From positions 1 through 19,385 of the forward strand of contig JAADEK010000091.1 in assembly GCA_013153455.1 (NCBI GenBank): a stretch of DNA of 19,385 bases. The letters are read 5' to 3'. Of the stretch, positions 14,368 through 16,854 are shown piece after piece. Numbering within the stretch: the first letter of the stretch is position 1; each line of letters opens with the position of its first letter. Below the pieces are notes generated by a model. It saw only the letters and a list, made by a program, of their open reading frames with translations, did no database searches and was not told where the DNA came from. Both the position numbers and the translations under genes were made by a program. The DNA comes from Aquificota bacterium. GTDB taxonomy: Bacteria > Aquificota > Aquificia > Aquificales > Aquificaceae.

Positions 14368-14395
14368 TTGATTGTGTATCAGGTTTGCTTATATT
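14368..14395 (+). promoter_or_regulatory. Sigma-70-type promoter of the prefoldin operon
   Basis: TTGATT (14368-14373) and TATATT (14390-14395) are separated by 16 nt. The predicted start near 14402 leaves a leader of about 30 nt that contains the strong Shine-Dalgarno GAGGAGGTG before the ATG. This is the most conventional promoter and leader in the window. Confidence 0.6.
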
Positions 14396-14431: not shown

Positions 14432-14872
14432 ATGGCTGAGGAAAAGAAGGTAAGCGCGGAAGAAAAGATGGAAGAGCTTCATAAGGAGTTGAGGGGTTAT
14501 ATGGCTCAGATTGAGGCTCTCCGCGCTGAGATAGCTCTCATCAATCAGTCCATAGCGGACCTCAGGGCTGCCGCGGCTACGCTTAGGAACTTAAAAGACC
14601 TCGGTAAGGGTAAGAACATACTCATACCCATAGGGAGCACCGCTCAGATTGAGGCAAAGATTGAGGACGTTGATAAGGTGGTTATGAGCGTGGGTGCGGG
14701 TATATCCGCGGTTCTCTCCTACGAGGAGGCTCTCAAGAGGATTGAGGTTGAGATTGCTGCGCTTGAGGCTCTGAGGAGGTCACTTGAGGAGGCTATCGTT
14801 GAGCTTTACAACAAGACCGAGGAGCTCCTTGAGAGGGTCAGGGAGGTCGGGAAGCAAGAGGCTTCCGCGTGA
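14432..14872 (+). CDS. Prefoldin alpha-subunit-like protein
   Basis: Prefoldin (GimC) is a jellyfish-shaped hexameric co-chaperone of archaea and eukaryotes that holds unfolded proteins and passes them to group II chaperonins. The 146 residues have the alpha-type plan: a long N-terminal coiled-coil helix (about 8-55), a beta-hairpin region (about 62-95, ILIPIGSTAQIEAKIEDVDK then VVMSVGAGISAVLSYEEA), and a second long helix (about 97-140). The core IPIG, the IEDVDKVVMSVGAG block and the YEEALKRIE helix start match archaeal alpha subunits closely. The Shine-Dalgarno is near-consensus and the codons are simple, suggesting high expression. It heads a four-gene operon, and the next start is 9 nt away. 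Prefoldin-like genes are rare in bacteria; Aquificales are among the few where I expect them. Confidence 0.88.
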   Translation: MAEEKKVSAEEKMEELHKELRGYMAQIEALRAEIALINQSIADLRAAAATLRNLKDLGKGKNILIPIGSTAQIEAKIEDVDKVVMSVGAGISAVLSYEEALKRIEVEIAALEALRRSLEEAIVELYNKTEELLERVREVGKQEASA

Positions 14873-14881
14873 GGCGGTTTT

Positions 14882-15574
14882 ATGGACCAAAGGGAGCTGA
14901 GGGAGCTAATAGCCCTAAATACGCTCGTCTTTGAGACGCTCGGAAACCCGCCGACGGAGAGGGAGTTTGATTTTCACGCCCTCCGTCGGTGGGGGCTTGA
15001 CCTTCTTTTCGGGAAGAAGGACGGGAGGGATGCTTTTTTTGTTTCGGACATAGGGAAGCGCTCGTCGGGGGACGTATACGAGGAGGGGGGTTCAAGATAC
15101 GAGGTTCTTGAGGTTCTCTCGGAGCTACCGAAGGGTTCGCGCTTGGTCGCGAGGGTTGTCTCCTCGGAGGGTAGTTCCTTCGTAGTTGGGTCTCTCATTT
15201 ACGGGGAAAGCTCTCAGGAGATTTTTCGTATACCCGCGCCCTCAATGCTTATGGCTTTCTTTTTGAGGAACCGTCTTTTTCACCTCGCTAACTGTCTCAG
15301 GAGCGTGGGTATCTTGACGGAGTTCGTCCACAGCAGGGGGCAGGAGGGGAAGCCTCTTCCTTACCGTGCTCTCCCGAACGTCGCGCGCAGGTTTTTACAA
15401 AACGCAAAGAAGATAGAGAGGGACGCGGGTTTCGGGAGGGTAGCTCTCGCTTTTTTCGGTAAAAACAGGGAGGGAGACCACCGCTTCAGGGTCTCTTGGA
15501 TACTCCCGACGATAGCTCTCTTTGATATTGACATAGCGGAAAGGGCGGACAAGAATATAGGAGCGTTCAAATGA
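14882..15574 (+). CDS. Unknown 230-residue protein in the prefoldin operon
   Basis: I do not recognise this family. It has no signal peptide, membrane helix, Cys cluster or nucleotide-binding loop. The N-terminal 60 residues are mixed helix ([20 protein letters not shown], then [15 protein letters not shown]). Residues about 65-130 look beta-rich ([30 protein letters not shown]). The C-terminal part is helical and basic ([19 protein letters not shown]), ending [20 protein letters not shown]. It starts 9 nt after the prefoldin-alpha-like gene, and its stop is shared as ATGA with the RAMP-like gene, so it is translated as part of one set. Many Arg residues near the C-terminal half could fit RNA binding, but that is a guess. 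A strong 13-bp hairpin lies near its 5' end. Confidence 0.85.
14947..14993 (+). repeat. Long inverted repeat near the start of the unknown prefoldin-operon gene
   Basis: CCGACGGAG (14951-14959) and CTCCGTCGG (14981-14989) pair perfectly. Flanks extend this through one G-U and three C-G pairs to 14947/14993, for a 13-bp stem with a 21-nt loop, 66 nt into the gene. Confidence 0.75.
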
Positions 15575-16290
15575 GGGTTCTCCTTTGGACTCCCGTTCTC
15601 TTAAAGGAAAGGGCTTTCCCGAGGAAGGATGGTGTTCCTTTTATCCCTTCCGGTTATGTGAGGGACGCCTTCCTCAACGCGCTTATATACTACGCTTTTA
15701 AGAAGGACAAGGTGCTTGAGAGGAGGGTTCTTGAGTTTTTGCTTGAGGAGGACTTGAGCCCCAAAAGGGCGGTTGAGTTTGTGAAGGAGTCCGTTCTTGA
15801 GAGGCACCCGGAGGTGGGGGAGCTTGAGGTGAGCGATGCGGTTCTTGAGGAGGGTGTTCTGAGGAAGGCTCGGGTGGTTCTTTACGACCTTCGCTACAAG
15901 GCGGAGGTTGAGGTGTTTGACGCGGAGCTCGGGACGGGTGCGGGGAGTCTTGATGTCTCGTTCCCGAGTCCCGAGAGGTTGAGAAGCGCGTGTCATTCCT
16001 TTGCGGAAGCTCTTCTTCACGCGGAAAGGACGCTCGTTCGGGGGCATCCGCTTGAGGAGAGCTTTTACGTTCCCCTTTCGGGTGAGATAAAGCGCTGGGA
16101 GGTGCCCTTGAGGCTCGGGCGCTGGACCGACGACGAGCTCAGGGAAAAGCTCTTTTGGTTTTGGGGGGACAAGAGGGTAAGGGAGAGGGTGAGGAGACTG
16201 CTGGGGAGGGATATAAGACCCGCGAGGGTCTTTTTCTACCCGAGGGAGGGGAAATTCCTCGGATGGACGGAGGTAAGGAGAGATGTTTGA
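15571..16290 (+). CDS. RAMP-like (Csm5-type) orphan protein in the prefoldin operon
   Basis: The 239-residue protein resembles RAMP proteins of type III CRISPR effectors, most like Csm5. After a first beta strand ([11 protein letters not shown]) comes [19 protein letters not shown], the place where Csm5 has IPGSSxKGAxRTAxxYY. A strand-rich middle follows ([30 protein letters not shown]), then a helix with [11 protein letters not shown], a block [13 protein letters not shown] resembling the Csm5 LRLGxGxG loop, and a terminal [15 protein letters not shown] resembling Csm5 PLGWVKI. The usual Gly-rich loop is degenerate and the protein is shorter than Csm5 (350-400), so it may be a derived, non-CRISPR member. 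It overlaps its neighbours on both sides (4 nt and 8 nt). No other cas gene or array is present. Homology is by eye only. Confidence 0.5.
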
Positions 16291-16564
16291 GAAGGTCAAG
16301 AAGGTTCTCAGCACGCTGAGGGGTTCGCTTTCGGGAGACTCTCCCCACATACCCCGAAAGGAAATCCAGAGCGCCATAGACCTCCTTGAGCAGATAGAGA
16401 GGGATATACTTGAGAAGGAGCTTGAGGCTGCGCTTGAGGCTCTTGAGCAGCTTGACGAAAACAGGAAGTTCTTCTACCTGATAGGTAAGCTCTACGTTGA
16501 GGTCACAAAGGAGGAGGCAAAGAGGCTCATAGAGCTTGAGCTGAAAAAATTGAGGGAAGAGTGA
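16283..16564 (+). CDS. Short prefoldin beta-subunit-like protein
   Basis: The 93-residue protein has a helix-hairpin-helix plan. From about residue 45 the sequence LEALEQLDENRKFFYLIGKL and VEVTKEEAKRLIELE parallels the archaeal beta-subunit stretch of the form ALEEIETLPDDAQIYKTVG, then VKTTKEKAVQEL. It includes the Y-L-I-G-K-L strand and the VTKEEA turn. Residues about 27-55 form the N-terminal coiled coil; the C-terminal helix is only about 20 residues, whereas archaeal beta subunits (about 115-120 residues) have a full-length one. The ATG overlaps the RAMP-like stop by 8 nt and is preceded by AGGTAAGGAG. It closes the four-gene operon. A generic coiled-coil protein is the alternative, but the hairpin match is specific. 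Confidence 0.6.
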   Translation: MFEKVKKVLSTLRGSLSGDSPHIPRKEIQSAIDLLEQIERDILEKELEAALEALEQLDENRKFFYLIGKLYVEVTKEEAKRLIELELKKLREE

Positions 16565-16601: not shown

Positions 16602-16751
16602 ATGAGAGCTTTTGGCGTTGGGCTTATGGTTGCCTCCTTTGTGCTAAAAATATCCAAGGAAATAGGAGAAAAAACACTTTTGGCGCTTCTTTTGTTCGGT
16701 CTCTTCATGGTTCTCAGCGGGGCTATACTGCATCTGTATGGAGAGGGGTGA
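16602..16751 (+). CDS. Small membrane protein of 49 residues
   Basis: This ORF reads from an ATG with an AGGGG Shine-Dalgarno 4 nt away. The product begins MRAFGVGLMVASFVLKISKE and has one clear hydrophobic helix, LLALLLFGLFMVLSGAILHL (residues about 26-45), ending YGEG. The short hydrophobic N-terminal part could be a second, weaker segment. It sits 37 nt after the prefoldin-beta-like gene on the same strand. I do not recognise the family. It could be a small subunit of a membrane complex. Support comes from the Shine-Dalgarno, the helix and the overlap with a second similar ORF. Confidence 0.5.
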   Translation: MRAFGVGLMVASFVLKISKEIGEKTLLALLLFGLFMVLSGAILHLYGEG

Positions 16752-16854
16752 TTACTTTTTAATCTTAATGGCGCTCATCGGCTCTCTGGGACTCTGGAGT
16801 TTGTATTTCCTAATGACATTCTTCGCAAAGAAGAAAAGACAAAAAGAAACTTAA
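16738..16854 (+). CDS. Second small membrane protein of 38 residues, overlapping the first
   Basis: From ATG 16738, 14 nt inside the preceding small ORF and in another frame, 38 codons encode one hydrophobic helix (FLILMALIGSLGLWSLYFLM) and a strongly basic tail (AKKKRQKET). The tail predicts a cytoplasmic C-terminus. The layout resembles small subunits of respiratory complexes (CcoQ- or NapE-sized proteins), but there is no sequence match I can claim. The start has no good Shine-Dalgarno, so translation would be coupled to the upstream ORF; an internal Met at 16768 would give 28 residues. The stop lies 17 nt before the convergent narB stop. Together these two ORFs fill the 307-nt space between the prefoldin operon and narB. 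Confidence 0.45.
   Translation: MERGDYFLILMALIGSLGLWSLYFLMTFFAKKKRQKET

Follow-up and report, generated by a model that had tools for sequence, protein, structure and literature searches.

A gamma-type prefoldin operon with UPF0128 and Csm5-like partners in Aquificota, a candidate stress proteostasis cassette

A 19,385-nt stretch of DNA from an Aquificota bacterium (contig JAADEK010000091.1; the whole stretch is called the window below) carries four plus-strand reading frames spanning positions 14432–16564, which encode a prefoldin alpha-type subunit of the gamma or ‘alpha 2’ kind (PfdA), a UPF0128 protein, a stand-alone Csm5-like RAMP protein and a shortened prefoldin beta-like subunit (PfdB). 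As the genes are conserved and co-occur among 136 Aquificota genomes, their neighbourhood is not due to chance, and the cassette appears to be a so far undescribed system for surviving heat or stress, with a prefoldin type known mainly from archaea. Our best explanation, to which we give about even credence, is that the operon forms the core of a heat or stress proteostasis cassette of thermophiles based on gamma-type prefoldin, to which UPF0128 and the Csm5-like protein belong as dedicated partners. Among the matches listed for prefoldin with Aquificota, bacteria with chaperonin, Csm5 and YfdX we found no published description of such a cassette.

The proteins of the operon

The first-pass annotation had described four packed genes with a 9-nt gap followed by overlaps of 4 and 8 nt, which proved exact to the base, and had read the outer two as prefoldin alpha- and beta-like. 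PfdA (14432..14872, + strand, 146 amino acids (aa)) matches PF02996 at E 1.4e-25 with 90 bits (cut-off 23.2) and TIGR00293 with 93.8 bits (cut-off 53.9). The nearest solved chain is 6vy1_A, ‘Prefoldin subunit alpha 2’ (E 4e-34), followed by 1fxk_C (4.3e-11), and a profile of 17 PfdA found 6vy1_A at 1.5e-49 compared to 1.7e-15 for the canonical alpha subunit 2zdi_C. We take 6vy1 to be the gamma-prefoldin of Methanocaldococcus jannaschii. In a 25-row tree a 97/92 branch parts the bacterial PfdA together with three archaeal gamma-like proteins from the archaeal alphas, which are represented by only four sequences and on whose side long branches were flagged by the program. The Methanocaldococcus-type gamma subunit of locus L213, a Methanococci protein nearly identical to the 6vy1 chain (9.9e-76), groups with PfdA of the Aquificota family f3 at 100/99. 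By score and tree PfdA is a true prefoldin alpha-type subunit, nearer to the gamma kind than to canonical alpha. Database annotation already names a ‘prefoldin subunit alpha’ in Aquifex, Persephonella and Thermovibrio. Two Oceanithermus proteins of this name from outside Aquificota (P0217 and P0222) belong to the same PfdA family, P0217 being included in the tree.

A classical prefoldin shares its cell with a group II chaperonin. None was found in the genome of the window (1.15 Mb in 126 contigs, 82.9% complete), and TIGR02339, the group II chaperonin model, exceeded its curated cut-off in none of the 136 Aquificota genomes, compared to four archaeal controls that were over it; weak matches occur in 124 of the 136 genomes and in all bacterial controls. 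Prefoldins were stated to be absent from bacteria in a 2017 paper (PMC5635000, excerpt), whereas 47 of the 136 genomes have the heat-type prefoldin with no group II chaperonin over cut-off, and such a bacterial prefoldin therefore offers a natural setting in which to test the role of prefoldin on its own.

PfdB (16283..16564, + strand, 93 aa) is a marginal member of PF01920, scoring 28.8 bits where the cut-off is 27.6 and covering profile positions 12–76 of 106. The same family is matched at E up to 0.1 by 20 of 22 PfdB homologues, and the PfdB profile matches the solved prefoldin betas 3aei_A and 2zdi_A. It is not a full beta subunit with two long coiled-coil arms: the equivalog model TIGR02338 gives 21.2 bits with 73 required, and across loci the protein measures 49–99 aa compared to the 110 positions of that profile. 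The hairpin R-K-x-Y-Y-x-x-G-x-L-M-V-E-V is retained and the flanking helices are shorter on both sides. Taken as the longest frame, PfdB has 93–99 aa in the genus of the window, 81–92 aa in families f3 and f4, 50–82 aa in f2 and 50–85 aa in f5; a ‘mini-beta’ of 49–65 aa, with start codons as they came, is present in 37 of 59 loci, which include some contigs twice. The profiles thus speak, as had been proposed, for prefoldin and not for generic coiled coils; the canonical type does not stand, since we find the gamma heat type with a shrunken beta subunit.

A short beta gene next to a gamma-type alpha gene was also found in three archaeal genomes (56, 90 and 93 aa). The 90-aa protein of the Thermococcus locus L214 matches the solved ‘prefoldin beta subunit 2’ at 6.4e-18, and in the Methanocaldococcus-type locus L213 (1323–1914, minus strand) the gamma-prefoldin gene is followed by an overlapping 56-aa mini-beta homologue (E 8.5e-21), which is possibly an unrecognised partner of the filamentous gamma-prefoldin. 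Prefoldin alpha subunits contribute two hairpins and beta subunits one (PMC7370476, excerpt), and an engineered gamma-prefoldin with a single working beta-sheet interface caps filaments (PMC4895442, excerpt). A one-hairpin mini-beta would therefore be expected, by analogy, to end or close a gamma-prefoldin assembly, which makes the small beta gene beside gamma-prefoldin a natural end-cap candidate for a filament used in nanotechnology (PMC4895442, excerpt).

The third gene (15571..16290, + strand, 239 aa) had been called RAMP-like; profile and fold confirm this and allow the narrower name Csm5, with its Cas7-type fold. As a single sequence the protein gave no family match of note. The Csm5 fold is complete over the whole chain; among the top VIA rows, the name Csm5 is drawn from the analysis for six chains (6iqw_F, 6mur_F, 6xn3_J, 6o7e_Y, 9ash_J and 7uzz_E) and for the remaining ones assumed, in part from entry titles. 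At the cut-off of TIGR01899 (Csm5) no family is assigned to the window protein and none of the listed stand-alone places exceeds it; 8 of 25 homologues match this model at E up to 1, the best at 1.7e-6. Only 12 of 29 aligned Csm5-conserved columns, as defined from ten Csm5 rows, are kept and 8 further columns are unaligned. Changes affect the K-G-x-x-R helix and the glycine that follows LRxG; at the N terminus the H-I-G-x-G motif lies outside the alignment. The gene does not lie in a type III-A locus with Cas10/Csm1, and neither Csm1 nor Csm5 gave a match at E 0.001 in the window genome (G000) or in G092, the latter 100% complete by estimate with 5 contigs. The RAMP has the Csm5 fold but stands alone, away from CRISPR loci, and many residues conserved in Csm5 are gone from it; a Csm5-type protein in such a place would represent the exaptation of a Cas subunit.

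Its upstream neighbour (14882..15574, + strand, 230 aa) is a full-length UPF0128 protein over the curated cut-offs of PF03673 (E 5.8e-85) and TIGR00703. A confident model of it matched no solved fold, and no paper was found under four of the family names. With the operon the family gains a context, namely a fixed partner and a likely process. Two UPF0128 copies, one near the consensus and one diverged, occur in four f3 genomes (G107, G108, G110 and G111). In methanococci and Thermococcus (L155, L156, L161, L165 and L173) a protein of 82–85 aa is encoded directly 3' of UPF0128, for which no Pfam family was over cut-off in the one scanned (L155). A similar protein follows UPF0128 in two contigs labelled as Aquificota (L151 and L154), the one in L151 being DUF2122, ‘RecB-family nuclease’.

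Conservation and linkage in Aquificota and beyond

Among the 136 genomes PfdA (PF02996) was over cut-off in 47, or in 48 at E up to 1e-3, the weak match of G090 below the cut-off being excluded, and UPF0128 was found in 47, fragments in G004 and G128 included. The RAMP profile gave 53 genomes at E up to 1e-3, of which 48 remained after removal of G065, G097, G098, G100 and G104, where the only match is a short piece of a longer Csm5-listed frame. All three genes co-occur in 44 genomes and 87 have neither PfdA nor UPF0128. Where two of the genes share a genome they mostly lie within 6 kb of each other, namely in 38 of 45 genomes for PfdA and UPF0128, 39 of 46 for PfdA and the RAMP, and 40 of 44 for UPF0128 and the RAMP, and every PfdA genome (47/47) carries UPF0128 or the RAMP. 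Fisher p-values for the co-occurrence are near 1e-30, with shared ancestry ignored. The core is spread over five families with 4/64, 19/41, 5/7, 1/2 and 15/22 genomes, and in five f3 genomes, G112 and G113 PfdA lies on a separate contig and still co-occurs with the other genes. Losses were seen as well: the UPF0128 fragment of G004 has two stops, a 65-aa remnant of the RAMP is left in G073 (L132), and G105 and G106 have the RAMP without PfdA or UPF0128.

The first-pass annotation had expected a conserved gene order. The content is indeed conserved and the order is not fixed, as we found PfdA-UPF-RAMP-PfdB in the window, PfdA-M2-M1-UPF-RAMP-PfdB in its genus (M2 and M1 are described below) and UPF-RAMP-PfdA-PfdB elsewhere. 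Because the gene set is conserved and co-occurs across the sample, the dedicated system that had been suggested is likely.

A scan of genome contigs for UPF0128 turned up 99 relatives. We kept 80, which by title come from Campylobacterota, Bacteroidota, Deltaproteobacteria, WOR-3, other metagenome-assembled genomes (MAGs) and archaea. As these titles are MAG labels and some look wrong, claims on phyla rest on genome groups where possible. Three loci titled candidate division WOR-3 (L104, L107 and L112) have a full Desulfurobacteriaceae-type cassette, and their labels or binning may be wrong. The RAMP is present in 51 of the 80 loci, and in each of these 51 it directly follows UPF0128 in the same orientation, with a gap of −200 to 150 nt. 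PfdA is present in 28 loci, 23 have the RAMP without PfdA and 29 have neither, contig ends included, so that the UPF0128 and RAMP genes stay side by side in one orientation in loci without prefoldin too. The 18 genomes with a RAMP-less UPF0128 locus have the RAMP elsewhere in 2 of 11 bacterial and 0 of 7 archaeal cases. In bacteria the wider core consists of UPF0128 and the RAMP, in archaea of UPF0128 only, and since the pair occurs without prefoldin in other bacteria, prefoldin looks like a module joined on in Aquificota and not like the core. Upstream of UPF0128-RAMP two Nautiliaceae loci (L167:586–3369 and L170) have radical-SAM and PTPS genes, assigned by Pfam on L167 only and presumably of the queuosine-making kind; in L212 a radical-SAM gene lies a few kb from the RAMP.

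Membrane and envelope-stress neighbours and flanking signals

M2 (about 160 aa) and M1 (about 180 aa) are small membrane-type proteins with no family over cut-off. They lie inside the operon in three genomes of the genus of the window and 3' of it in many f2 and f5 loci, and 35 of the 41 genomes (out of 136) with M2 also have PfdA. In L062, from the same genus, a DUF505-like gene follows PfdB and ends the operon. YfdX (PF10938) is over cut-off in 34 of 136 genomes, or 33 once G012 (26.9 bits with its neighbours) is removed; it occurs in 31 of the 47 PfdA genomes and in 19 of these 31 within 6 kb. It is present in 12 of 14 f2 loci holding PfdB and 3' of the RAMP in 3 of the 4 f3 loci looked at. 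YfdX accompanied by an HdeD-type protein was found in six loci of UPF0128 whose titles name other phyla, and YfdX is over cut-off in 21 of 27 bacterial and 0 of 8 archaeal UPF0128 genomes, counts given with no background rate set for these groups. In the tLST island of E. coli, YfdX and HdeD form an envelope-stress module needed for heat resistance (PMC8290217, excerpt).

Ahead of the operon a sigma-70-like promoter candidate, TTGATT-16 nt-TATATT (14368..14395, + strand), is a match to the consensus, and a ribosome-binding-like GGAGGTGG precedes the ATG of PfdA. The ‘one good promoter’ of the first-pass annotation has its candidate site, yet its goodness is weak evidence because three sigma-70-like sites were seen in the scanned region compared to 1.0 expected. 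Two very short membrane-type reading frames lie 3' of the operon: a 49-aa frame (16602–16752) with no family over cut-off and no match to M1 or M2, and a 28-aa frame (16768–16854) that was read by eye.

Possible function and relation to known systems

A role in stress proteostasis is suggested because the prefoldin is of the heat type, because the cassette is spread, by title, mostly among thermophiles of vents and hot springs, and because of YfdX, HdeD and the membrane partners. PfdA would use its two beta-hairpins to build oligomers or filaments that hold unfolding proteins, and PfdB, with one hairpin and short arms, may bind the free ends and close or cap the assembly as the natural counterpart of the engineered cap. 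The UPF0128 and Csm5-like pair would work on or with this assembly, either as adaptor or as preferred client, and in many relatives M2, M1 and YfdX might extend the response to the cell envelope.

Several observations weigh against this proposal. The gamma-prefoldin of M. jannaschii is said not to interact with its alpha or beta subunit, in a statement that does not name the mini-beta (PMC11117396, excerpt). Most genomes of the window's own family (60/64) are without PfdA. Outside Aquificota a strong gamma-type PfdA match exists in 3 of 8 UPF0128 archaea with a PfdA-less locus and gamma-type prefoldin elsewhere in 0 of 27 bacteria of this kind, 15 of which carry the RAMP; UPF0128-RAMP therefore does something without prefoldin. 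M2 occurs in six genomes without PfdA, and the window genome itself has M2-M1 on another contig (L205, G000:C13, 3840–6969), followed by a DUF505 protein (PF04458, E 5.9e-241) and with a neighbour that looks by eye like mnmG. Finally, YfdX is absent from the window's genome, at 82.9% completeness.

A bolder version of the stress proteostasis proposal can be offered only tentatively, as we think it rather doubtful. Here a filamentous bacterial prefoldin, its length set by a tentacle-poor beta cap, would carry a de-CRISPRed Csm5 and a new-fold UPF0128, forming a chaperone-plus-RAMP machine that is tied to membrane and envelope-stress proteins and operates without a group II chaperonin. In M. jannaschii this mini-beta would be the partner of gamma-prefoldin that has so far gone unrecognised.

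Two other explanations are unlikely to a similar degree. In an RNA-linked chaperone, a possibility already raised in the first-pass annotation, the Csm5-like protein would bind RNA ends or RNA-decay enzymes, and prefoldin and UPF0128 would protect or assemble the ribonucleoprotein under heat. This agrees with the complete Csm5 fold, with pI values of 7.7–9.6 in 25 RAMP homologues compared to 8.9–9.6 in 10 real Csm5, and with the presumed queuosine genes of the two Nautiliaceae loci. In type III-A CRISPR, Csm5 brings in PNPase and RNase R. Its binding and stimulation of PNPase have been described (PMC9762709, excerpt), but most of the Csm5-conserved columns and motifs listed above are lost or unaligned and the Rfam scan of the window gave no family at its gathering score. 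Alternatively, UPF0128 and the Csm5-like protein could form a machine of their own, for the envelope or for RNA modification, and the prefoldin pair would merely be its assembly chaperone or holder in Aquificota. The RAMP directly 3' of UPF0128 in 51 of 80 loci, 23 of them without PfdA, fits such a machine, as do the five f3 genomes in which all three genes occur and PfdA is on a separate contig. Against it, no catalytic fold was recognised, and as all PfdA genomes have UPF0128 or the RAMP, the link to prefoldin exceeds mere convenience.

Unrelated heat-adaptation genes that travel together in one transcription unit without joint work are a distinctly improbable explanation. The shuffled order and single losses (the RAMP remnant of G073, the RAMP alone in G105 and G106) would be expected then, but the same set was built in several orders, is kept where it is unlinked (five f3 genomes and G113) and has overlapping reading frames. 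A defence system reusing a Cas protein is highly unlikely: Csm5 is a CRISPR effector subunit and the distribution is patchy, but PADLOC, which covers described systems, gave no convincing match (19 low-scoring ones for the coiled-coil PfdA, none for the other three), the searches made found no CRISPR gene in the window, Csm1 and Csm5 were not matched at the above threshold in the two genomes searched, and the neighbour genes of the relatives, named by eye, look like housekeeping genes.

Compared to known systems, the proposed cassette is closest in its prefoldin to M. jannaschii, where gamma-prefoldin makes filaments and increases 26-fold when the cells are shocked with lethal heat (PMC11117396, excerpt). 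Both belong to the same alpha subfamily and in the Methanococci genome a short beta gene adjoins as well; in contrast, the window PfdA is bacterial, is encoded with UPF0128 and the Csm5-like protein, and its filaments are predicted only. Thermococcus kodakarensis has two alpha/beta pairs, of which PfdC/PfdD serves survival at high temperature (PMC4473059 citing Danno 2008, excerpt). The gamma-type alpha beside a short beta in the Thermococcus locus L214 probably corresponds to PfdC/PfdD, and differs from the window in that UPF0128 and the RAMP are absent from the 3.4 kb seen around the pair. Csm5 of type III-A CRISPR-Cas is longer (329–466 aa in the ten used, compared to 239 aa) and, unlike the RAMP of the window, which keeps 12 of 29 conserved columns and stays below the TIGR01899 cut-off, works with CRISPR partners. 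The UPF0128 protein is a full-length member of an uncharacterised protein family. The likeness to the tLST, or locus of heat resistance, is that several lineages have YfdX close to UPF0128, at times accompanied by an HdeD-type protein; the window genome differs in having no YfdX, and from the set of ClpK, small heat-shock protein, YfdX and HdeD our search covered the latter two.

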